In this document: positions 11,409 through 25,813 of the stretch, one piece after another
Position numbering within the stretch: the first letter of the stretch is position 1
Layout: the number at the start of each line of letters is the position of its first letter
Source of the DNA: Lewinella sp. W8
GTDB taxonomy: Bacteria; Bacteroidota; Bacteroidia; Chitinophagales; Saprospiraceae
Direction of reading: 5' to 3'
Length of the DNA: 64,000 bases
Assembly (NCBI RefSeq): GCF_004375085.3
Contig: NZ_SNAQ03000002.1
Location: forward strand, 1 to 64,000
Notes under the pieces: model-generated
Told to the model about the DNA's origin: nothing
The model's database searches: none
The model's input: only the letters and a program-made list of their open reading frames with translations
Made by a program: the position numbers and the translations under genes

Positions 11409-13013
11409 CTATTTCACCTGCTCCACCTGGAACCACTCCCGGGCCGAGCGGGCCGGTAACACCGTAGCGCTGATGCGTCCCTCGGCCACCAGAAAGTATT
11501 CCGTAATCATTTCAGCGGACAAAGACGCCACGTAACTACCGTCCGCTTCGGGCGACAGCTTGGTGTACCGGAAATTATTTGATCTGCGGGGGCGATGGGC
11601 CACCCAAACCGCCTCGGCCGGAACCCCACTCACCAGACTCACGGATACCGTTACCGAGTCACCGTCCTCCAGCGCCTGGTGGGTTTCGATCTCGGGGACG
11701 GGCTGTTTGTACAGGGGATGATCCCGCAGATATTCCCCGCGCTTTTCAAAGAACTCCTGCAGGCCAATTACGGCACCACCGGAAATGTCTACCGTATTGT
11801 GGTAATTCTGGGTGTACGTCTCCGTGGGGTACAGCGGATTAGGCTCCTGGATTACTTCGGAGGTAATCGTTTCCCGGATGGCTTCCGCCCGTTTGAGGTA
11901 CTGGCCATCAGCAAATTGCTCCTCGTAAATGGTCCGGAGATGCGCCACGTACATTTTGCGGAAAAGTGGACGATCAAAAAGGCGAAGAATGAGCGGACGA
12001 TCCTTATTGCGGTCGGAAAAGTGCAGAAAGGGACTGAGTTTCACCATTTCTTCGTTGGTGAGGACCTTATCCCGGTCCACCAGGCGGAAGCCGCCAACGC
12101 TCAGGTTCAAATCCCAGATGACCGGCCGCCAGATTCCCGTGGAATCCTGGAAGAGGTAGTAGTTGTGGCAGAAGGCTCCAAGGTAGCTGTCCAGGTTCAC
12201 GAGGGCATTGTTGAAGGCCAGCATCCAGAGGGCTTCATCCACGTTGAGCCACGTTTCGGGAGCAATTTTCTCGTTCTCCAGGTTTTTGGTCATCGCAATG
12301 AGTTCCTTCCAACCATAGTCCGATTTTTTCAACTCGTAGCGTGCCACGTAGCAAGCACTGTCGGGGCCGAGGTAGCTGAGGTTAGCGCCCAGTCCGGGGG
12401 GGCAAACCGAAGGCGGTGGGTCCTTGCTTTCCGGATCGCACTTGAACAGCAGTCCGTCTTCCGAGTGAAACTCATCCTCCCAGAATTGCTCGTCCACGGA
12501 TTCGGTCAGGTTGTACAAACCGTAGTAATCACCGTCTACCGTCAGGCGGGCGTAGTTACAGTCGGGGGCCGAAAGGTAGTCGCGGGCGATGGCGTAGGAG
12601 AGGCTTTCCCGCAAATAGCTCGGGTCCCGGAATACGTTGCTGAGCTTGAGGGTGCGGTAACGGCCCTGGACGCGCTGGTCCTTATGGGTATAGCTCACCT
12701 TGATGTTGAAGGGAAGCTTTTTCTTTTCGGCCCGTACGGGGGCGAAGTAGGAGGAGTTCCCCTTCAGTCGGACGCCCACCGAATCGAATACCTCTCCGTT
12801 AACCTTCAGGGTGGCCAGCACCCGGTCCTGGATGTTGTTTTTCTTCCAGGCGTTCAGTTTTTTCTTCCAGTGCGGGTCATCCATTTCCAGTTCAATCTCT
12901 ACGATCTTTTCCAGACTGTAGAGATCGGCTTCCGCATTTTGGGCGAGGGCGCAGGTGCCCAGCAAGCAGAAAAGAGCAATAAGGTGTGGAATACGAAGCG
13001 AGGCTGCGCTCAT
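11409..13013 (-). CDS. CotH-like protein kinase family, secreted
   Basis: 534 residues from the ATG at 13013, which opens into the signal peptide MSAASLRIPHLIALFCLLGT; an upstream start at 13064 is less likely. CotH landmarks: the strand GVRLKGNSSYF, KLPFNIKVSYTHKDQRVQG, NVFRDPSYLRESLSYAIARD, VDGDYYGLYNLTESVDEQF, LLFKCD and, for the metal-binding end, RPVIWDLNLSVGG. CotH proteins are atypical kinases, known from spore coats and fungal invasins; in Bacteroidota they are secreted and uncharacterised. The C-terminal 100 residues form a beta-rich domain (DGDSVTVSVSLVSGVP). Confidence 0.87.
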   Translation of the reverse strand: MSAASLRIPHLIALFCLLGTCALAQNAEADLYSLEKIVEIELEMDDPHWKKKLNAWKKNNIQDRVLATLKVNGEVFDSVGVRLKGNSSYFAPVRAEKKKLPFNIKVSYTHKDQRVQGRYRTLKLSNVFRDPSYLRESLSYAIARDYLSAPDCNYARLTVDGDYYGLYNLTESVDEQFWEDEFHSEDGLLFKCDPESKDPPPSVCPPGLGANLSYLGPDSACYVARYELKKSDYGWKELIAMTKNLENEKIAPETWLNVDEALWMLAFNNALVNLDSYLGAFCHNYYLFQDSTGIWRPVIWDLNLSVGGFRLVDRDKVLTNEEMVKLSPFLHFSDRNKDRPLILRLFDRPLFRKMYVAHLRTIYEEQFADGQYLKRAEAIRETITSEVIQEPNPLYPTETYTQNYHNTVDISGGAVIGLQEFFEKRGEYLRDHPLYKQPVPEIETHQALEDGDSVTVSVSLVSGVPAEAVWVAHRPRRSNNFRYTKLSPEADGSYVASLSAEMITEYFLVAEGRISATVLPARSAREWFQVEQVK

Positions 13014-13210
13014 TGGTTTGTGAGGTAATTCATCGTGAAGGTACAATCCCGGGGCTGAACCCAACGGCAGGAAGAGAAGTAGACCGGCAATTTATCGCCC
13101 GTGGCACGGGCCTGAAAATAACGAAGGCATTTATTCGACATTGCGTCTCCTCCCTTACCGGAAGCTCAGGCCGGTGAAAACAATTTTCCCCCTACCCTAC
13201 TTACCCCAGC

Positions 13211-14893: not shown

Positions 14894-15312
14894 TTGGTTA
14901 AAATTTATACTTTAAAAATAACTGATAAGCAATTACTTATCTTCTTTGTACATCCTTGAAACGGGTCCTTCCGTACTGCTGTTCGGTCGGGTCAGGGTTT
15001 TTTCAAAAAAAGTTCAACGTGTGGTTTCAGTCCCTCAGCCCGAGCCAAGGCATCAGGTTTCTATTCCCTGGATAGTCCGCCAAAACACTTATCCATTCAC
15101 GTTGTTATTGATGGGAGTGTCTAGTCCTGAAGGTGTTTAGCTTACCCATGAGGGTTGGTGATAATGTCCCAGCTTACGTTCCCCGGTGTGTCCTGCTACG
15201 GTTTGGCGGTGAACGCCTTTGGCCGTCACACTAAAGTCACGATCCCACCATTTTTCGCATCCCACGAAAAACACGTGAGAATCCTGTAAATCCTCGCTAT
15301 TTTTGCGCCCCT
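14894..15312. other. Divergent promoter spacer
   Basis: 419 bases between the helical secreted protein and lepA. A small inverted repeat gataag/cttatc lies at 14924-14941. No coding frame or RNA gene was recognised. Confidence 0.5.
15298..15305 (+). promoter_or_regulatory. -7 box TATTTTTG of lepA
   Basis: An exact match to the Bacteroidota -7 consensus TAnnTTTG, 8 bases before the lepA ATG. No clear -33 TTG was found at the expected distance, so this rests on the -7 box and position. It implies a very short leader. Confidence 0.45.
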
Positions 15313-17100
15313 ATGAAGCATATTCGCAATTTTTGTGTCATTGCCCACATCGATCACGGTAAGAGTACGCTCTCTGACCGCCTGCTGGACTTTACCCAAT
15401 CCGTTAGTGAGCGCGATCGGAAAGATCAGTTACTGGACGATATGGACCTGGAACGCGAGCGTGGCATCACGATCAAGAGTCACGCCATTCAGATGCACTA
15501 CAAGCATACTGATGGCCAGGAGTATGTCTTCAACATGATTGATACTCCGGGACACGTGGATTTCAGCTACGAAGTGTCCCGCTCCATCGCGGCTTGTGAA
15601 GGTGCCCTGCTGCTGGTAGACGCCACTCAGGGGATTCAGGCCCAGACCATTTCCAACCTCTTCCTGGCGCTGGAGCACGATCTGGAAATTATTCCGGTCC
15701 TTAATAAGGTGGATATGGAAACGGCCATGATCGAAGAAATGGCCGATCAGATGATTGACCTCACGGGATGCTCCCGGGAAGAGATTGTCCTGGCCAGTGG
15801 AAAGACGGGCATTGGTGTGCCGGAAATCATGCAGGCGGTAGTCGAGCGGATTCCCCCACCCAGTGGAGATCCCGAAGCCCCCCTCCAGGCGCTGATTTTT
15901 GATAGTGTGTTCAATCCATTCCGGGGCGTTATTGCCTACGTCCGGGTGAAGAACGGTAGCCTGCCCAAGGGAGCAGAGGTGCTGTTCACCGCTACTGGGG
16001 CCAGGTACTCCGCCGATGAGGTGGGCGCGATGGAACTGGAGATGAAGCCCACCAAAGGGATTGCCTGCGGAGACGTTGGGTACATCATCACCGGCATCAA
16101 AAAATCTTCGGAAATCAAGGTTGGGGATACCGTTACGCTCGCCAACAATCCGGCCGAGCAGCTATCGGGCTTTGAGGAAGTCAAGCCCATGGTCTTCGCC
16201 GGTATCTTCCCGCTGGATAACGATGATTTTGAGCCCCTGAGGGATAGCCTGGAAAAACTGCAGCTCAACGACGCCAGTCTGGTATTTGAACCCGAAACCT
16301 CAGCGGCCCTGGGGTACGGTTTCCGCTGTGGCTTCCTGGGGATGCTTCACCTGGAGATCATTCAGGAACGTCTGTTCCGGGAATTCAACATGGACGTCAT
16401 CACGACGGTTCCAAACGTTACCTACCGCATCACCGACACCAAGGGTGAGGTCCGGGAAATCCGCAATCCGGCGGAACTGCCGGAGGCCAACAGCCGGGCG
16501 ATGGTAGAAGAACCCATCATTTCGGCCCAGATCATTACCCAGACCGACTACATCGGTTCCATCATGACGCTGGCCATTGAAAAGCGGGGGACGCTGAAGA
16601 AACAGACCTACCTTAGTCCGGAAAGGGTTGAGCTCCACTTTGAACTGCCACTGGCCGAGATTGTGTTTGACTTTTATGACCGCCTGAAATCCATCTCCCG
16701 CGGATACGCCAGTTTTGATTATCAGCCGCTGGAATACCGGGAAACGGATCTGGTGCGGATGGACATCAAGCTCAACGGCGAAAACGTCGACGCGCTGTCG
16801 GCACTGGTCCACCGCTCCAAGGCCCAGAGTGTAGGTCGGGGAATGTGCAAAAAGCTCAAGGAACTGCTCCCGCGGCAACAGTTCATGATCGCCATTCAGG
16901 CGGCCATTGGCGCCAAAGTGATCGCCCGGGAAACCCTGTCGGCCATGCGCAAGGACGTTACCGCGAAGTGTTACGGTGGTGACATCAGCCGGAAGCGGAA
17001 GCTTCTGGAAAAGCAAAAGGCCGGTAAGCGAAAAATGCGGCAGTTTGGCAAGGTTGAAGTGCCCCAGAAGGCCTTCCTGGACGTCCTTAAGCTGGACTAG
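15313..17100 (+). CDS. lepA: Elongation factor 4 (LepA), ribosomal back-translocase GTPase
   Basis: 595 residues, full length. Starts [20 protein letters not shown], containing the G1 loop; switch [14 protein letters not shown]3 [16 protein letters not shown]4 NKVDM, then domains II, III and V, and the LepA-specific C-terminal domain ending with [20 protein letters not shown]. Acts on the ribosome, using GTP. The stop TAG is part of CTAG and shares bases with the stop of the convergent ribD. Confidence 0.98.
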
Positions 17101-18161
17101 CCACCGATTCGCGCAAACACCCGCAGTAAATCCGTTCCGATTTTTTCTTCCCGTAGTAACCGCACTTCTCCTTTCAGCGCTGGAGCAGCAAGTCCTGCAT
17201 TTAATTGCTGCGGACTGGTGAAGACCCTGGCTTCGTCCCAGAGTCCCTGCTGAATAAAGGCTTGCAGGAGGGCAGCACCTCCCTCCACCGTCAGATGGCC
17301 CAACCTGGCCGCATGGAGCCAACTGAGCACCTGCGGTAACGCCCCCTTCCACCCTGACGACAAGGGAACTACTTCGGCTTTAAGGTCAGGACGATCCGAG
17401 CCGGAGAACACTACGGGCTTCCGGTCCTGACGGAAAATCTTCTCCCGTCCGGTACAACGGTCTTTAGGGTCAAGTACGATCACGCGGGGAGACGGGCCCG
17501 GAAAGAGCCGGGTATTCAGGCCGGGGTTATCTTCGACGATGGTTCTCCCGCCCACCATAATGGCGGTGCTGTTGGCCCGCCAGCGGTGGACCAGCCGGCG
17601 GCTGATGGGATTGGTAAGCCAATAATCTTCTTCCCGATTCTCCGGACGCAGAAAGCCATCCGCGGATTGCGCAAACTTGAGGAGCACAAAGGGCCGTTCC
17701 TGGCTGGCAATAACCTTGCGGAACCGATTGGGTGCGAGGGTAGGCTTAAAACCATTGTACTCAGTCACCGAAACGTTGGCCTCTTCCAAAATTCCGACGC
17801 TCATGCCGTTGACGCCCGGAGTAGCATCTCGCTGGGCGAATACCACCCGCTTAATGCCGTGCCGTTGGATGAGATCCGTACAGGCACCGGAGCGCCCCTG
17901 GATGCAGCAGGGTTCCAGGCTAACGTACAAGGTGGAGTCGGGAATTTTGGGTCGGTCATCCTCCCGGACACTAGCCAGGCAATTTACCTCAGCGTGGGCC
18001 TCTCCGGCTACCTTATGGTAACCTTCTCCGATAATCCGGCCCCGAAAAACGAGCACCGCTCCTACCCTCGGGCTGTCCCCTACCCGTCCGTCGGCCAGGG
18101 CCGCCAGCTGACCGCAGCGAAGCAAAAAAGATTCGTCTCTCAACTCAACGGGACTAGACAT
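17097..18161 (-). CDS. ribD: Bifunctional riboflavin deaminase/reductase RibD
   Basis: 354 residues, usual size. N-terminal deaminase zinc site: His56-Ala-Glu58 in GEAHAEVN, Cys85 in [10 protein letters not shown] and Cys94 in SGACTDL (the family usually shows PCxxxGxxPPC; here the proline pair is SG, still consistent). C-terminal reductase domain: [36 protein letters not shown], and [19 protein letters not shown]. It performs two steps of riboflavin synthesis from the GTP-derived pyrimidine. The stop overlaps lepA by four bases through a shared CTAG. Confidence 0.93.
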
Positions 18162-18224
18162 AACACAAAATGCTTGATTACGGACAAACTTGGTGCTTTT
18201 TGATAACGATTCGGGCTAAATCGG

Positions 18225-18256
18225 GTTGACATCTGCGTTCACATAGCATAGATTTG
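18225..18256 (+). promoter_or_regulatory. Bacteroidota-type promoter of the AP2 gene
   Basis: GTTGAC (18225-18230) provides the -33 element and TAGATTTG (18249-18256) the -7 box, an exact match to TAnnTTTG, with 20 bases between TTG and TA. The -7 box overlaps the first arm of the ATTTGTGAAT inverted repeat. Confidence 0.65.
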
Positions 18257-18330
18257 TGAATATAATAAACAATAGCGCGGCCGATCTAAAGCGATTTGTA
18301 CCGCTATTTGTACTGTCTTCATTCACAAAT
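18252..18330. promoter_or_regulatory. Inverted repeat ATTTGTGAAT ... ATTCACAAAT, candidate operator
   Basis: Perfect 10-base arms at 18252-18261 and 18321-18330. ATTTGTA words also lie at 18294-18300 and 18306-18312 between the arms. One arm overlaps the -7 box and the other lies 8 bases before the AP2 gene start. Candidate autoregulatory site, by inference. Confidence 0.5.
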
Positions 18331-18338
18331 GGCTAAGC

Positions 18339-18980
18339 ATGGTAAAATCTATTCAACTCAAAAATTCAGAAGACCAGGCCCTGCTTGACCAGCAAGTGTA
18401 CGAAGAACTCCGTCAGGATCCGCACCTTAAAGAAGTAGACTTTTTCCAAAATCTTCGCAGACATTCCTCCGGTTGCGTGGTTTTCCAGAAAACGTACAAG
18501 CGATCCGGAAAGGAAAAGGGATATCGAACCGAAACCATCTACCTGCATAAACTCATCGCAGAACGCTACTTATCGGACAACCGGGTAGGCAAAAACAATC
18601 TGGTCGGTGCCAAAAATGGTAACAAGATGGATTGCCGCCTGGACAACCTGGAGTACCGGAGTCGCTCCGTGGCGAGCCGAAAGCGTAAGTCGAGCTCCAA
18701 GCTCGGATATACCGGGGTGTACAAGGAAAACAACCGGTACCGTGCGGTCATTTCGGTAGAACGCCGAAGTGTACACATCGGGATGTTTGCTACCGCCGAG
18801 GAGGCAGCGCTGGCCTACAACAAGAAGTCCCTGGAGCTGTACGGGGAATTCGGAAAGATCAACGTCATTCGTCCCCACGCTGCTTCGGGAGACGATCAAA
18901 GTTCTTCCGCTCAGCCTCCCTTCGGCCGCAAAACAAGTTCTCCGGATGGTGGCGAAGCGGGCATGGTGAGTGATAAATAG
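18339..18980 (+). CDS. AP2-domain DNA-binding protein with degenerate HNH-like domain
   Basis: 213 residues. Residues 60-110 follow the HNH_3 layout: LHKLIAERYL with His70, then VGAKNGNKMDCRLDNLEY. The usual histidine of the vdHiDgN motif is replaced by Ala91, while Asn103 is retained, so nuclease activity is unlikely. A basic linker (SRKRKSSSK) leads to an AP2 domain at about 123-170: GYTGVYKENNRYRAVISV, then FATAEEAALAYNKKSLELYG. HNH-AP2 proteins are usually homing endonucleases; this one could instead act as a regulator. The Ser/Gly-rich tail (173-213) is unstructured. It stands alone, with its own promoter. Confidence 0.8.
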   Translation: MVKSIQLKNSEDQALLDQQVYEELRQDPHLKEVDFFQNLRRHSSGCVVFQKTYKRSGKEKGYRTETIYLHKLIAERYLSDNRVGKNNLVGAKNGNKMDCRLDNLEYRSRSVASRKRKSSSKLGYTGVYKENNRYRAVISVERRSVHIGMFATAEEAALAYNKKSLELYGEFGKINVIRPHAASGDDQSSSAQPPFGRKTSSPDGGEAGMVSDK

Positions 18981-18988
18981 GGCCTGCC

Positions 18989-19684
18989 TTATTCGGGTTT
19001 TCGGGCGATCGTCATTTCTCGCTTTCCCGGGGGACCGGGAACGCCTTCCACCAGAAAGCCCGTGGCCCGCAAATTGCGTTTAAACTGCCCCTGGGCGCAG
19101 TAGGTGGTCAGCCATCCGCCGGGCCGCAGGGCCCGGAAGGCCACGGCGAGTGCCTCACCTTCCCAAAATTCCGGCTGGCTGCTGGGTGCAAAGGCATCGT
19201 AGTAAATAACGTCAATGGACCCCGCCGCGTAGCTCCGCTGCCCGTCGCGGATGAAGTCCCTCCGGAATTTTTCCAGGAAAAAATTCTCGGTGATCGCCAC
19301 CCGCTTTTCCCATTCCGCCCGGTGAAGGGGGAGAAAAGCCGACGGATCAATGTTTAGTTGTGCGGGGTAGTTCAACTGTAGCACGGTTTCTTCCGTAACC
19401 GGGTAGGCTTCGTAGGTGAAGTATTCTACGGATTGATCGGTGTATGCTTCCCGGCCGACTTCCATCACCGTCAGCAGGGCGTTCAGGCCGGTACCAAACC
19501 CCATTTCCAGGATGCGGACGGGGCGGTCCCGGACGGCCGCCAGGGCCGGCAGTAAACCGTACTTGATAAATACGTGCTGGCTCTCGGTGATGGCGCCGTG
19601 GGTACTGTGGTAGGGAACCGCGAAACGGTCATTTACCAGGGTGTGGCTGCCATCCTCCGTTAATACTCTTTCCTCGTGCTGCAT
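18989..19684 (-). CDS. mnmD: tRNA 5-methylaminomethyl-2-thiouridine methyltransferase MnmD
   Basis: 231 residues. Family landmarks: LTEDGSHTLVNDRFAVPYHS, the SAM-binding ILEMGFGTGLNALLT (about 60-74), DVIYYDAFAPSSQPEFW, and RPGGWLTTYCAQGQFKRNLR with VPGPPGKREMTIA at the end. It is the methyltransferase half of MnmC, without the FAD-oxidase half, as usual in Bacteroidota. Completes mnm5s2U34 in tRNA wobble position. Only 11 bases downstream of ytxJ, so probably co-transcribed. Confidence 0.9.
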   Translation of the reverse strand: MQHEERVLTEDGSHTLVNDRFAVPYHSTHGAITESQHVFIKYGLLPALAAVRDRPVRILEMGFGTGLNALLTVMEVGREAYTDQSVEYFTYEAYPVTEETVLQLNYPAQLNIDPSAFLPLHRAEWEKRVAITENFFLEKFRRDFIRDGQRSYAAGSIDVIYYDAFAPSSQPEFWEGEALAVAFRALRPGGWLTTYCAQGQFKRNLRATGFLVEGVPGPPGKREMTIARKPE

Positions 19685-19695
19685 AAGTCGAGTGA

Positions 19696-20025
19696 TTAGG
19701 CCGGCAGCAGGGCGTTGGCCCGAATGGAAAGGTGGGAAGCATCGTGGGTTGCCTTTCCTTCCCGGATAACCAGCACCTGCGGGGATTCGTGCTCTACGCC
19801 GAAGTGATCGGCGATGTGGTTACTGACGGAACGGAACCGATGAAGGTCGAGGTAGTAGGCCTCAAGGTCTTCTTCCCCAAAGTCCCACTCCATCTCCAGT
19901 CGCTTCTTGGCGATACTGCTGATGGGACAGGTCGTACTGTGCTTGAAGATCAGACAGGGAGTCACGCGACTGCGGTCAATGATCGTTTCTACGTCTTCCA
20001 GCGACGTAATGGGATACCATTTCAT
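19696..20025 (-). CDS. ytxJ: YtxJ-type monothiol bacilliredoxin
   Basis: 109 residues with a thioredoxin-like pattern. The active region is CLIFKHSTTCPIS with Cys33 as the only nucleophile in the TCPIS motif, which fits a monothiol bacilliredoxin; a second cysteine, Cys24, lies outside the motif. The end has SPQVLVIREGKATHDASH. The family reduces bacillithiol mixed disulphides, so bacillithiol synthesis is expected elsewhere in the genome. Upstream member of a two-gene unit with mnmD. Confidence 0.88.
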   Translation of the reverse strand: MKWYPITSLEDVETIIDRSRVTPCLIFKHSTTCPISSIAKKRLEMEWDFGEEDLEAYYLDLHRFRSVSNHIADHFGVEHESPQVLVIREGKATHDASHLSIRANALLPA

Positions 20026-20489
20026 AGTTTACTAAATGTCAGGTAGCTGTTGTCCTCCACCATCAAATGGCCATCCTACACGGCAACTTGGCTTTCCTCC
20101 CGGAAAGGCCTGATAAAAGTACCGCAGAAGTCCTGATTAAGGGTGGACTAGAAAATTGATACAGCAACCGTAACGCAGTCAACGAGGAATTCGTTGAGCG
20201 AAAAGTTGGTGGGACATCCGTAACCGCGGTTGCAGGAAGAGAGCAACAACATGGCTAAAGCGCTGAAAACAACGGAGAAACGGGGTGATTGCTTGAAAAT
20301 ATTCATGGAACTGGGAGATGTAAACGGGAGTAATTTGATCTAGTATGTCGCAATAAGACAACCGGTAATGGACCTTGTTGTTTAGGGTAGGTGACGGGGA
20401 GGAAAACTTCTTTTACTCCCGGCAACCAAACAACGTTTCCAAAATTGTCGGCCGTGGATTACTTTTGCGGCCGCAAAGATAACCCCAAT
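20026..20489. other. Spacer upstream of pdhB
   Basis: 464 bases between the ytxJ start and pdhB. No reliable coding frame: a 60-residue minus-strand frame at 20179-20361 resembles nothing. A probable pdhB promoter sits at its end. Confidence 0.5.
20436..20467 (+). promoter_or_regulatory. Candidate pdhB promoter
   Basis: TTTC (20436-20439) and TACTTTTG (20460-20467), the latter exactly TAnnTTTG, separated by 20 bases. The -7 box lies 22 bases before the ATG. Confidence 0.5.
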
Positions 20490-21473
20490 ATGGCCAGAAA
20501 AATTGCCCTCCGCGACGCTTTACGTGAAGCAATGTCAGAAGAAATGCGCCGCGACGAAAATGTCTTCCTCCTGGGAGAAGAAGTTGCTCAGTACAACGGT
20601 GCCTATAAAGTTTCCAAGGGCATGCTGGACGAATTCGGTCCCAAGCGGGTCATTGATACGCCCATTGCGGAACTCGGTTTTGCGGGCATCGGCGTCGGAG
20701 CGGCCATGAACGGCCTGCGCCCCATCGTCGAATTCATGACCTGGAACTTTGCCATTCTGGCCTTTGACCAGATCGTGAACAATGCGGCCAAAACCCTCTC
20801 TCAGAGTGCCGGACAGTTCAACTGTCCCATCGTGTTCCGGGGGCCTTCCGGATCCGCCGGACAGCTGGCCCAGCAACACAGCCAGACTTTTGAAAGCTGG
20901 ATGGCCAATACGCCCGGGTTGAAGGTTATCTCCTGTATCCACCCCGCCGACGCCAAGGGCCTGCTGAAGAGCGCCATCCGGGACAATGACCCCGTCTGCG
21001 TCATGGAGTCTGAAATGCTCTACGGTTACGAAGACGAGGTCCCCGAAGGAGAATACCTGGTACCGATCGGCAAAGCTGCCGTTCGTCGCGAGGGTACCGA
21101 CGTGACCCTGATTTCCTACAACAAGATGATCCTGCCGACGCTGGAGGCCGCCAAAGAGCTGGAAAAGGAAGGCATCTCCGCCGAAGTGATTGACCTGCGG
21201 ACGATTCGTCCGCTGGACCGGGAGACCATCATCAACTCCGTAAAGAAGACCAATCGTGCCGTCGTGGTGGACGAAGCCTGGCCCTTCGCCGGCGTGAGTT
21301 CCGAAGTAGCCTACTCCATTCAGAAATTGGCCTTCGACTACCTTGACGCACCGGTCATCCGCGTTAATTCCGCCGATACCTCGCTCAGCTACGCGCCCAC
21401 TTTCGTGGAGGAATACCTGCCAAATGCCGACAAAATCATTCGTGCGGTAAAGGAGGTTACCTACGTAAAGTAA
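20490..21473 (+). CDS. pdhB: Pyruvate dehydrogenase (or related 2-oxoacid dehydrogenase) E1 beta subunit
   Basis: 327 residues from the ATG at 20490, giving MARKIALRDALREAMSEEMR, the standard start; an upstream frame from 20391 is rejected. Transketolase pyrimidine-binding part: FLLGEEVAQYNGAYKVSKG, DTPIAELGFAGIGVGAAMNG, RPIVEFMTWNFAILAFDQI. C-terminal part: TLISYNKMI, AEVIDLRTIRPLD and VVVDEAWPFAGVSSEVAY. The alpha subunit is not adjacent, which is common in this phylum. It acts in the thiamine-diphosphate E1 enzyme that makes acetyl groups for the lipoyl E2. Followed by a strong terminator. Confidence 0.92.
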   Translation: MARKIALRDALREAMSEEMRRDENVFLLGEEVAQYNGAYKVSKGMLDEFGPKRVIDTPIAELGFAGIGVGAAMNGLRPIVEFMTWNFAILAFDQIVNNAAKTLSQSAGQFNCPIVFRGPSGSAGQLAQQHSQTFESWMANTPGLKVISCIHPADAKGLLKSAIRDNDPVCVMESEMLYGYEDEVPEGEYLVPIGKAAVRREGTDVTLISYNKMILPTLEAAKELEKEGISAEVIDLRTIRPLDRETIINSVKKTNRAVVVDEAWPFAGVSSEVAYSIQKLAFDYLDAPVIRVNSADTSLSYAPTFVEEYLPNADKIIRAVKEVTYVK

Positions 21474-21497
21474 AGGAACATCCCCCAAAAGACGCGA

Positions 21498-21535
21498 AGC
21501 CCCGATCAGGTATCCTGGTCGGGGCTGCGTTTTTT
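21498..21535 (+). terminator. Rho-independent terminator of pdhB
   Basis: A 13-base stem agccccgatcagg (21498-21510) / cctggtcggggct (21514-21526) with one G-T pair and a 3-base loop, then gcg and a T-run (21530-21535). Confidence 0.92.
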
Positions 21536-21581
21536 GCCGTTGGGCTTTCGGTCGGCCGGAGAGTACTTTCCGCTTCAACCA

Positions 21582-21991
21582 CGACCGGCATGCGGAGCAA
21601 GCCCATTACAGATAACCTCTCATAGCCTCAGCCCTTGCGACCGGCCTTCTGCTTTTGCGACCGGTATGCGCTTGCCCGACCAATCACCAATGGGGCGGGG
21701 AGCAAGCCTGCTCCGGATAATCCTTCTCAGCCTCAGCCTTCTCCTTAGTCTTAACCCCGGCTGCACCTCTACCCGGCACCGTCACCGAATTCTTATTTTT
21801 ATACGACCGGCCTGCGGAGCAAGCCTATTACAGATAACCTCTCATAGCCTCAGCCCTTGCGACCGGCCTTCTGCTTTCTCCTTTTGCGACCGGCATGCGG
21901 AGCAAGCCTACTCCGGACGATCCTCATTAGCCTTCTCCTTAGCCTTAACCCCGGCCTCCCCTCTTCCCGGCACCGTCACCGGATTCTTATC
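21582..21991 (+). repeat. Two tandem copies of a ~200-base intergenic unit
   Basis: Copy 1 (21582-21797) and copy 2 (21803-21991) share, in order, acgaccggc, tgcggagcaagcc, attacagataacctctcat, agcctcagcccttgcgaccg, gccttctgctt, a second gagcaagcct-ctccgga block, ccttctccttag, taaccccggc and ggcaccgtcaccg. Within each unit the gagcaagcc block occurs twice. A long open frame crosses the array but the peptide is low in information and I do not regard it as coding. Confidence 0.75.
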
Positions 21992-22040
21992 AAGTACGCT
22001 CAGGCTTTCTTCTTACTTTTCCCTTCATTACCTTAGCGCC

Positions 22041-23202: not shown

Positions 23203-24429
23203 CTATTTGTACTGGTCCTTCAAGTCCTGAATGGTCTTCTCTATTTTCACTTGATCTCCGTTTTTTTGGCCACCGCCTAGGTCAAGGTACTTCTGGTAGT
23301 CAGTTAGAGCTCCCAGAATATCTCCAGTGTTTTTCCTTGCCGTCCCCCGATTTTTGTAGGCTAGAGTGTAGTTCTTTCTTCGTTTTATTGCTTCCGTGTA
23401 ATCCAGAATAGCCCCCTCCAAATCACCTTTTCGGTAGCGGGCGGAACCTCGCGATATATAGGCTCTTGGCGCGTATGTTTTCACCCTTCCTACACTTAGT
23501 TGGATGGCCCGATCATAATCTGCTATCGCCGCGACCTGATCTCCCTGTCTGGATCGCATGAGCCCCCGATTGATGTAAAAATCCGGATGATTCTGTTCAA
23601 GGCGAATGGCCTCCTCATAATCCATCATTGCCCCCGTTGCGTCCCCTTGTCCTTTTCTTGCCGTGCCCCGGTTGTTGTACGCAAGAGCGTAATCAGGATC
23701 AAGTCGAATGGCCTCGTTGTAATCCTTGATGGCCCCAACAAAATCCTTCCGACCGTACTTGATATTTCCCCGATTATTGTAGGCTTCCGGATACGCTGGT
23801 CGCAACTGAATTGCCTGATCATAGGCATACTCTTTATCCTCGGGAGTTTTAGCGTTAACGGCCTTCTCGTACCATTCTTGCGCCGTTAGGGCGTTGTCCT
23901 CGATGTCTGGAGCCTCAATGGCCGCCAGCTGCTGTTCCCTTACCTTTTTCTGTACCGACTTTGTGATGGGGTGAAGCACGGTTTCCAGCGCAACGTTCAA
24001 TCGCTCGTCGCAAAGCTTTTGCATGGCGGCATCAAAATATTCAGCTGGCACCTTAAGTCCGTTGTATTTTTTAAGTGGCGCCAAATCGCCGGTTAAATGC
24101 CTGGCGATAGAGGGAGTGCCAAAACTAAACCCCTCCAAAAAAAGCGGGATGATGTTTCGTCTGGTCTTGATGGCCAGTTCGATTTCCCTCCTGAGCCAGT
24201 CGCCCGGTTCGCTGCACCGCTCGAGGGCCGAAGGCGTTAAGATGACCACAAAGTGGGCCCTTCCTTCAATATTCTGGGTGATGATCTGCGAAAAGTCTCC
24301 ACTTTTGATGCTGTTGTAATCGAAGAAAACATCATAGCCCTGACTGGTCAGGTGCTGGAAAATAGCCAGCGCCCAGGGTGTATTTGTCCGTCGGTAACTG
24401 ATGAATACGGTCTTCTCAATGCGTTGCAT
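23203..24429 (-). CDS. TIR-domain protein with TPR repeats, paralogue A
   Basis: 408 residues. TIR domain at about 5-125: KTVFISYRRTNTPWALAI, GYDVFFDYNSIKSGDFSQII, HFVVILTPSALERC, and DWLRREIELAI with Glu82, which aligns with the catalytic glutamate of TIR NAD-hydrolases. A linker with LTAQEWYEKAVNA leads to at least five TPR units (from about 195), each with AYNNRG or similar and a GDxxGAxxDYxEAI pattern. Proteins of this build may act in NAD-depleting immunity or in signalling. Close paralogue of the next upstream gene; own promoter. GC content is below that of neighbours. Confidence 0.9.
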   Translation of the reverse strand: MQRIEKTVFISYRRTNTPWALAIFQHLTSQGYDVFFDYNSIKSGDFSQIITQNIEGRAHFVVILTPSALERCSEPGDWLRREIELAIKTRRNIIPLFLEGFSFGTPSIARHLTGDLAPLKKYNGLKVPAEYFDAAMQKLCDERLNVALETVLHPITKSVQKKVREQQLAAIEAPDIEDNALTAQEWYEKAVNAKTPEDKEYAYDQAIQLRPAYPEAYNNRGNIKYGRKDFVGAIKDYNEAIRLDPDYALAYNNRGTARKGQGDATGAMMDYEEAIRLEQNHPDFYINRGLMRSRQGDQVAAIADYDRAIQLSVGRVKTYAPRAYISRGSARYRKGDLEGAILDYTEAIKRRKNYTLAYKNRGTARKNTGDILGALTDYQKYLDLGGGQKNGDQVKIEKTIQDLKDQYK

Positions 24430-24555: not shown

Positions 24556-25779
24556 TTACTCTCCTTTAATGTATCTTTCCTTCAACGCAAGAATGGTGTT
24601 CTCCATCTCGGCCTGATCCCCAAATTGCCGGCCACCGCCTAAGTCCAGGTAATGTTGATAGTCCGTAAGGGTGCCCAGGATGTCTCCTAAGCTGTTTTTG
24701 TCATAGCCCCGATTCTTGTATGCCAGGGCATAGTTGGGTTCTAAACGGATTGCTTCGGTAAAGTCCTGGATCGCTTCTTTTAGGTTACCCTGTATCCGGC
24801 GGGTTATCCCCCGATTGTTGTAAGCCTTGGCGTAGCCCGGCCAACAACGGATCGCCTGCGTATAATCACTGAGTGCCTGATCCAAATTCCGTTGTAATCG
24901 ATGCACATTCCCCCGATTATAGTAGGCCATGGGATAATCAGGATCCAGGCGAATGGCCTCGTTATAGTCCAAAACAGCTCCGTTCAGGTCCCCATGATCG
25001 GCACGCACCGCCCCGCGATTGTTGTAGACGATAAACAATTCGGGATTGTTTAATTCAATTGATCTGGTAAAGTCGGCAATCGCCCCCACGGGATCTCCCT
25101 GGTTGGCCCTGGCGTTCCCCCGGTTATTGTAGGCTTCGGGGTAATCGTGCTTGAGCGTTACTGCCTGGGTATAGCAGTAAATCTCATCTTCCGTGGTCTC
25201 CGCCACCATCCCCCGTTCAAACCACTCCTGCGCCGTAAGGGCATTTTCGTCTACCCTGGAAGCGTTACTGGCCGCCAATTGCTGCTGCTTCACTTGCTCC
25301 CGCACGGTAGGTGTGATGGGATGCAGAATCGTATCAAGGGCAACGTTGAGGCGCTCCGTGCGAAGCTTCTCCATGGCCGCATCAAAGTATTCAACGGGCA
25401 CCTTCAGGCCATTGTATCGTTTAAGTGCCGCTAGTTTCCCGGTAAGTTTTTCGGCAATGGATGGAGTACTAAAACTAAATCCCTCTAGAAACAGCGGAAC
25501 AATGTTTCGTTTATGCTCCAGGGCCAGCTCAATTTCGCGTCTTACCCAATCCCCTGGCTCATGGCATCGCTCCAGTGATGATGGTGTAAGGACGACCACA
25601 AAATGGGCCCTTCCCTCGATGTTCTGAGTAATGATCTGGGAGTAATCTCCGCTTTTGATGCTGTTATAGTCAAAAAAAACGTCATACCCGTGGCCGGTCA
25701 GGTAATGGTAAATCGCCAGCGCCCAGGGAGTATTGGTACGCCGATAACTGATGAAAACGGTCTTCTCAATGCGTTGCAT
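24556..25779 (-). CDS. TIR-domain protein with TPR repeats, paralogue B
   Basis: 407 residues from the ATG at 25779, matching the start of paralogue A (MQRIEKTVFISYRRTNTPWA); an ATG three codons earlier is possible. The TIR domain differs little from A (GYDVFFDYNSIKSGDYSQII; Glu82 in DWVRREIELAL). The TPR region has diverged more and carries about six units, such as YPEAYNNRGNARANQGDPVG. Separated from A by 126 bases that contain A's promoter, so the pair probably arose by tandem duplication with retained separate control. Confidence 0.9.
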   Translation of the reverse strand: MQRIEKTVFISYRRTNTPWALAIYHYLTGHGYDVFFDYNSIKSGDYSQIITQNIEGRAHFVVVLTPSSLERCHEPGDWVRREIELALEHKRNIVPLFLEGFSFSTPSIAEKLTGKLAALKRYNGLKVPVEYFDAAMEKLRTERLNVALDTILHPITPTVREQVKQQQLAASNASRVDENALTAQEWFERGMVAETTEDEIYCYTQAVTLKHDYPEAYNNRGNARANQGDPVGAIADFTRSIELNNPELFIVYNNRGAVRADHGDLNGAVLDYNEAIRLDPDYPMAYYNRGNVHRLQRNLDQALSDYTQAIRCWPGYAKAYNNRGITRRIQGNLKEAIQDFTEAIRLEPNYALAYKNRGYDKNSLGDILGTLTDYQHYLDLGGGRQFGDQAEMENTILALKERYIKGE

Positions 25780-25813
25780 GTGGTTCAACTGTCGGGACAG
25801 TATTATCGATTGC

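Follow-up and report, generated by a model that had tools for sequence, protein, structure and literature searches.

The gene at positions 18339–18980 of the window (the whole 64 000-nucleotide stretch of Lewinella sp. W8 DNA analysed here) probably encodes a nuclease-dead, AP2-based DNA-binding regulator that was domesticated from a homing endonuclease and occupies its own promoter. The domestication, which the initial annotation had suggested, is well supported: the HNH half has lost its catalytic pair in all members examined, the gene sits in one chromosomal neighbourhood, purifying selection on the copies of relatives is strong, and the predicted structure has an intact AP2 fold. DNA binding by the family protein, and likewise autoregulation, repression and the choice of targets, are proposed from sequence. 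The gene, its parts and its two neighbours are as follows.

18339..18980, + strand: gene for the putatively nuclease-dead HNH-AP2 protein, 213 amino acids
18339..18515, + strand: N-terminal beta domain, residues 1–59 (boundary approximate)
18516..18686, + strand: degenerate HNH_3 domain, residues 60–116 (boundary approximate)
18606..18611, + strand: codons 90–91 (Gly-Ala), Asp-His in viral relatives
18705..18866, + strand: AP2 domain, residues 123–176, three strands and a helix
17097..18161, − strand: ribD, divergent neighbour and conserved partner locus
18989..19684, − strand: MnmC2-type tRNA methyltransferase gene, convergent neighbour

Domain layout and the HNH site

Taken as a single sequence, the protein is barely recognized by domain libraries. 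Pfam HNH_3 scores 20.4 bits, under the cut-off of 24.8, Pfam AP2 (PF00847) gives no match at E up to 1, NCBIfam returns no families, and neither a LAGLIDADG domain nor an HTH appears in the Pfam and NCBIfam scans. A search with PF00847 at E 1e-4 matched none of 60 genomes, our own included; it missed the window gene itself and is therefore a weak search. At the family level the picture is clearer: in a 40-row alignment HNH_3 was found in all 40 members, PF00847 in 5 of them (E up to 0.1, best 8.6e-7) and PHROG_99, labelled 'HNH endonuclease', in all 40 (E up to 0.01). The 40-row family profile also recovered plant AP2 chains (7wq5, E 4.8e-8; 2gcc, E 9.2e-6), the AtERF1 match being placed at positions 121–173, and the best stretch of each plant chain aligns with the AP2 half only of the window protein. 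There was, in addition, a weak profile match (E 0.32) to an HNH homing endonuclease chain, 1u3e, which we take to be I-HmuI.

The AlphaFold model of the protein has a mean pLDDT of 89.8, with block means of 54–68 from residue 181 onwards. When the model was submitted to Foldseek, the best match was the WRI1 chain 7wq5_A (E 1.5e-4), the sole match passing E 0.001; TEM1 was also found, and 1gcc (AtERF1) aligned over 58 columns with a TM-score of 0.78 on the target, 1.5 Å rmsd, probability 1.00 and E 9.4e-3. The claim of an intact AP2 domain is thus borne out by the modelled fold and by the family profile. Since no HNH nuclease occurred among the 50 best Foldseek structures, the HNH assignment rests on sequence. 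Pfam, the profile hits on AP2 structures and the fold agree on HNH_3 followed by AP2 in one chain. No known RNA family matched positions 14900–22000 at E up to 0.5.

Residue 91, within LVGAKNGNKMDCRLDNL, is Ala in the window protein, as the initial annotation had noted; the neighbouring metal Asp, which it had overlooked, is also replaced (Gly90). H70 and N103 of the degenerate domain are retained. His91 is missing from all 44 orthologues of related genomes and from all 80 orthologues of named genomes (best 80 of 371), the 80 all carrying Gly90; the two sets (L001–L045 and L046–L125) overlap in some species. It is likewise lacking in 20 chosen order-level loci, as read off the sequences. In viral HNH-AP2 relatives covering the site, in contrast, His91 is kept in 68/71 and Asp90 in 63/67 (the viral set being the best 80 of 292 loci, near-copies included). 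Alignment A2, which omitted L123, L137, L142, L183 and L200 from 86 candidate rows beside the window, gives the same division: Gly90 without His91 in 51/51 family rows, Asp90 in 30/31 and His91 in 31/31 viral rows. The catalytic Asp-His pair is gone in every family member examined. A working HNH kept by relatives of the same domain order had been named as an argument against domestication; the viral relatives do keep the pair and the orthologues do not.

Three of the 71 viral rows have no His91. L133 shows His in A2, L169 is another, and L142 is a genuine case: its HNH-AP2 protein, on a viral contig (L142:2440–3312), is also without the Asp-His pair (NITFKTDNRSDFRLENL). In a quick tree of 117 rows, which excluded L142 and for which the two pair columns were set to be dropped (the base of the column numbering being unchecked), the His-less family forms one side of one branch (SH-aLRT 100), and the site requires one change of state (shuffled mean 28.9; 0 of 500 shuffles as low). 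With L142 added and the columns retained, the family still lies on one side of a branch (support 92); the two-state count remains 1 change and a three-group count gives 2, the minimum possible. The position of L142 itself means little because its branch is very long, and both trees are quick ones with long-branch warnings. Most simply, the pair was lost once, and with it, presumably, cleavage activity.

Seven basic residues, R40, K51, K96, R107, R109, R114 and R116, are invariant among the 51 family rows but not among the viral ones. In a wider set of 44 rows R40, K51 and R114 stay fixed and K96, R107, R109 and R116 occur in 38–42 rows. Such residues in and around the dead HNH half would fit a present role for it in gripping DNA. 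Within the N-terminal beta domain L7, K8, N9, R40, H42, S43, Q50 and K51 are invariant. Alignment A1 held 40 of the 44 orthologues (L017, L020, L024 and L026 were left out).

Promoter, inverted repeat and congeneric motif

The initial annotation had described a built-in operator upstream of the gene, and the promoter words and both arms of a perfect 10-base inverted repeat do sit where it placed them.

18226..18231, + strand: TTGACA, candidate −33/−35 element, 17 nt before TAGATTTG
18249..18256, + strand: TAGATTTG, −7 element of Bacteroidota type (TAnnTTTG)
18252..18261, + strand: left arm of the inverted repeat, ATTTGTGAAT, overlapping the −7 element
18256..18278, + strand: diverged copy, in the window, of a motif found in congeners (GTGAATAACAcAAACAATaCGTG); candidate operator close to where transcription presumably starts
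18294–18299 and 18306–18311, + strand: two more ATTTGT words
18321..18330, − strand: right arm of the inverted repeat, ATTCACAAAT on the + strand

TAnnTTTG is the Bacteroidota −7 consensus (PMC7366714). It is present in 10/16 leaders of the genus (resample mean 1.75, maximum 7; 500 resamples) and in 27/90 leaders overall (mean 13.1, maximum 23; 200 resamples).

The inverted repeat is weak evidence for an operator. Of 2000 first-order Markov resamples of the 177-base leader stretch, 40 contained a perfect 10-bp inverted repeat (about 2%), as did 14 of 718 window tiles (also about 2%). Four or more ATTTGT words, counting both strands, occurred in 0 of 5000 resamples, with the caveat that the word was chosen afterwards; some 6-mer reached four copies in 45 of 2000 resamples, and ATTTGT is not enriched in other leaders (51 against a resample mean of 37 and a maximum of 56). 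The repeat was rejected as a conserved operator: of 97 leaders only one, the window's own, contains either arm without a mismatch. This search covered the + strand of 250-base leaders, 97 of 124 being kept after short ones and copies were dropped, with start codons picked by position in scripts (60 GTG, 31 ATG and 6 TTG).

A genome-wide regulon marked by the repeat arm, for which a search had also been suggested, is not apparent either. The 6.18 Mb genome has 10 copies of ATTTGTGAAT, 6 on the forward and 4 on the reverse strand (2 for the backward control), and two of the 10 are the arms themselves; six of the eight other sites fall within a reading frame that ranks among the four longest of its stretch, the remaining two (L233 and L235) look intergenic, and a palindromic site with a gap of 0–6 bases is found nowhere in the genome.

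A different element is shared with congeners. It is a TAnnTTTG promoter, followed in a few of them by GTGAATAACAcAAACAA, and it overlaps the left arm of the inverted repeat; that arm, ATTTGTGAAT, consists of the end of the −7 box running into the first bases of the window's motif copy, and the right arm is window-specific. The string GTGAATAACAcAAACAAtaCGTG, shortly after TAnnTTTG, is common to L010, L012 and L003 (1–2 mismatches), L022 having 6 and the window 7. The shuffles of the window's copy (20) gave a mean of 10.65 mismatches and a minimum of 9. Taken alone, the window's copy is nevertheless weak, because three leaders outside the genus (L019, L078 and L079) also reach 7. A clear motif is present in only 3–4 of the 16 genus leaders, and L003, L010 and L012 are close kin, so that descent alone could explain what they share. 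When genomes were searched with GTGAATAA at up to 1 mismatch, 5 of 21 were hit (the backward control hit once): in G013, G016 and G020 the sole hit is an exact one beside the family gene, G002 and G015 have one-mismatch hits away from the gene, and our own genome has none.

Among non-Lewinella loci another word was noticed: AGAGAGC is found on either strand in 16 of 91 leaders (resample mean 1.3), for example L015, L068 and L075, often directly before a GTG start, and might serve as a signal for translation or as another operator word.

Chromosomal setting, distribution and selection

The gene is settled at one chromosomal neighbourhood. Among named loci with 1200 or more bases of flank, 66 of 77 have ribD upstream in divergent orientation, as do 33 of 44 loci of the related-genome set; an MnmC2-type gene follows in convergent orientation in 44 of 73 named loci whose flank is long enough and in 18 of 41 of the other set, a figure that is too low since some short overlaps were assigned to the wrong side there. 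Five congeners have no copy of the gene, and in these ribD follows mnmC on the same strand with 18–257 bases between the matched ends. In the corresponding loci (L240–L244) ytxJ, mnmC and ribD are close together on one strand, in an operon-like arrangement.

This association raises the question of whether a DNA-binding regulator would act mainly on ribD, and hence on riboflavin synthesis, or on a distant regulon, autoregulation being unimportant. The frequency of divergent ribD and the way in which gene and ribD context change together in the five congeners speak for such a target, but ribD is retained where the regulator is absent, TAnnTTTG on the ribD strand occurs in only 1 of 16 intergenic regions of the genus, and the congeneric motif lies nearer the start of the AP2 gene. 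We consider this unlikely, although it is the strongest of the alternatives to a regulator of its own promoter.

With respect to homing mobility, the neighbourhood is the same in most loci, yet the gene is sporadically absent from an empty site in the five congeners. A quick ribD tree of 26 rows implies 5 presence changes, at least 3 of them forced by starred branches, which means several losses or moves of the gene. It is simpler to assume that an accessory gene was lost repeatedly, and past homing-like gain may have contributed to some extent. Sporadic absence at one site does resemble a homing locus, and the protein could be a variant HNH enzyme that still cuts with relocated residues (H42, H70, C46/C99, D98, N103 and K51). 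H42, H70, C46, C99, D98 and N103 are fixed in 80/80 named orthologues and could supply a relocated active site. Against continued nuclease activity stand the absence of Asp-His from every family row and the agreement between protein and RibD distances (Mantel r 0.56; maximum of 999 permutations 0.18), which favours vertical descent, though protein and RibD have the same nearest neighbour in only 39 of 76 loci. A relocated site therefore seems to us improbable.

Across genomes the family is accessory. At E 1e-8 it was matched in 43 of 100 genomes, our own included (15/20 congeners, 22/40 from the rest of the family and 5/39 from the rest of the order), and its absence from 5 of the 20 congeners means that it is dispensable. 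A profile search matched 63 of 298 genomes of the order, one with six matches. Phylum-wide, 6 of 395 genomes match, again with our own, and the two from outside the order (L210 and L211) are weak and read VDH and IDH, i.e. intact sites. The named relatives include Neolewinella, Lewinella, Phaeodactylibacter, Flavilitoribacter and Saprospiraceae MAGs. As a separate observation, the order-level genome G195 (68% complete) holds six HNH-AP2 relatives without Asp-His (L212–L217), which points to expansion of the family in one lineage. Paralogues were not seen in our own genome (G000), for which the family-wide searches list one match. The idea of a plasmid gene was rejected, as no plasmid match turned up.

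A dead relative of a mobile nuclease with so patchy a distribution might also serve as a blocker, occupying a genomic site and shielding it against active HNH-AP2 endonucleases or phage, with no role in transcription. However, a search of our own genome with HNH_3 (PF13392) at E 0.01 returned only the window gene, plasmids gave no match, and the 30 matching phage records are all under 60% identity, none covering more than 80% of the query; we regard a blocker as very improbable.

Relatives' copies are under strong purifying selection, dN/dS being 0.00–0.12 in 12 of 13 chosen pairs; the thirteenth, the sole pair with the window's copy, was saturated, and several others have dS above 1. Over 76 loci the mean distance is 0.29 for the protein and 0.56 for RibD, so that the protein varies about half as much. 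A decaying relic without function, as the lost catalytic pair and the absence from some congeners might suggest, is largely refuted by this selection in the 12 pairs of relatives and by 18 invariant columns across the 40-row alignment, and scarcely deserves credence.

Proposed history and comparison with known systems

We propose the following for a self-regulating protein of this kind. A homing-endonuclease lineage with the N-terminal domain, HNH_3 and AP2 would have become fixed between ribD and mnmC2 in an ancestor of this Saprospiraceae/Lewinellaceae group. The catalytic Asp-His pair would then have been lost, most simply once, and the protein retained under strong selection as a sequence-specific DNA-binding protein, gripping DNA through the AP2 sheet with the aid of the basic surface that newly became conserved on the dead HNH half. 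Its most likely target would be its own promoter, where, once bound, it would obstruct RNA polymerase; it might also act on the divergent ribD and on distant genes. A broader proposal, offered tentatively, is that these proteins form a bacterial clade of AP2 transcription factors that might have arisen from a nuclease-dead HNH-AP2 enzyme independently of plant AP2/ERF, and that might control both themselves and ribD from the shared intergenic region.

Among the closest known systems are the phage and bacterial HNH-AP2 homing endonucleases, termed 'IPA-HNH' in PMC10448857. HNH_3 and AP2 occur in the same order in both, PHROG_99 matches residues 56–182 with E 5.3e-23, and some viral HNH-AP2 loci match almost over the full length (L126 and L198, for example, from residue 2 to 177). 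Unlike these enzymes, the window family has no Asp-His pair, occupies a settled chromosomal locus and carries extra fixed basic residues.

Two precedents exist for the type of regulation proposed. WhiA/DUF199 is presented in PMC3781837 as a degenerate LAGLIDADG protein acting as an autoregulator. The window protein would work similarly, with a degenerate homing endonuclease part coupled to a domain for DNA binding, but WhiA combines LAGLIDADG with HTH whereas here HNH is combined with AP2. According to a passage of PMC2988022, I-TevI of phage T4 binds an operator over its own promoter and represses it; I-TevI is, however, an active GIY-YIG enzyme, while the window protein has lost its catalytic pair.

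Plant AP2/ERF factors are thought to be related to HNH-AP2 homing endonucleases (PMC5318435, PMC10448857). They share the AP2 fold with the window protein (1gcc, 7wq5, 7et5), which differs in having a conserved HNH half attached. For the plant factors the step from nuclease to regulator has so far been inferred. If our reading is correct, the bacterial family displays that step as an intermediate, with both domains kept, the pair gone, a settled address and strong selection, and would offer a present-day counterpart to the origin proposed for the plant factors, with the ancestral nuclease half still in place. The idea is testable in named Neolewinella strains, and we found no description of a bacterial family of this kind in open-licence PMC papers. 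For annotation there is a warning: PHROGs label the protein an HNH endonuclease despite the loss of its catalytic pair.

Other genes in the window were noted in passing. On the − strand, positions 11409–13064 encode a CotH kinase-like protein of 551 amino acids (PF08757, E 2.7e-42), and 23203–24429 and 24556–25788 are adjacent similar genes whose products have an N-terminal TIR_2 domain and C-terminal TPR repeats, possibly with a part in signalling or defence.
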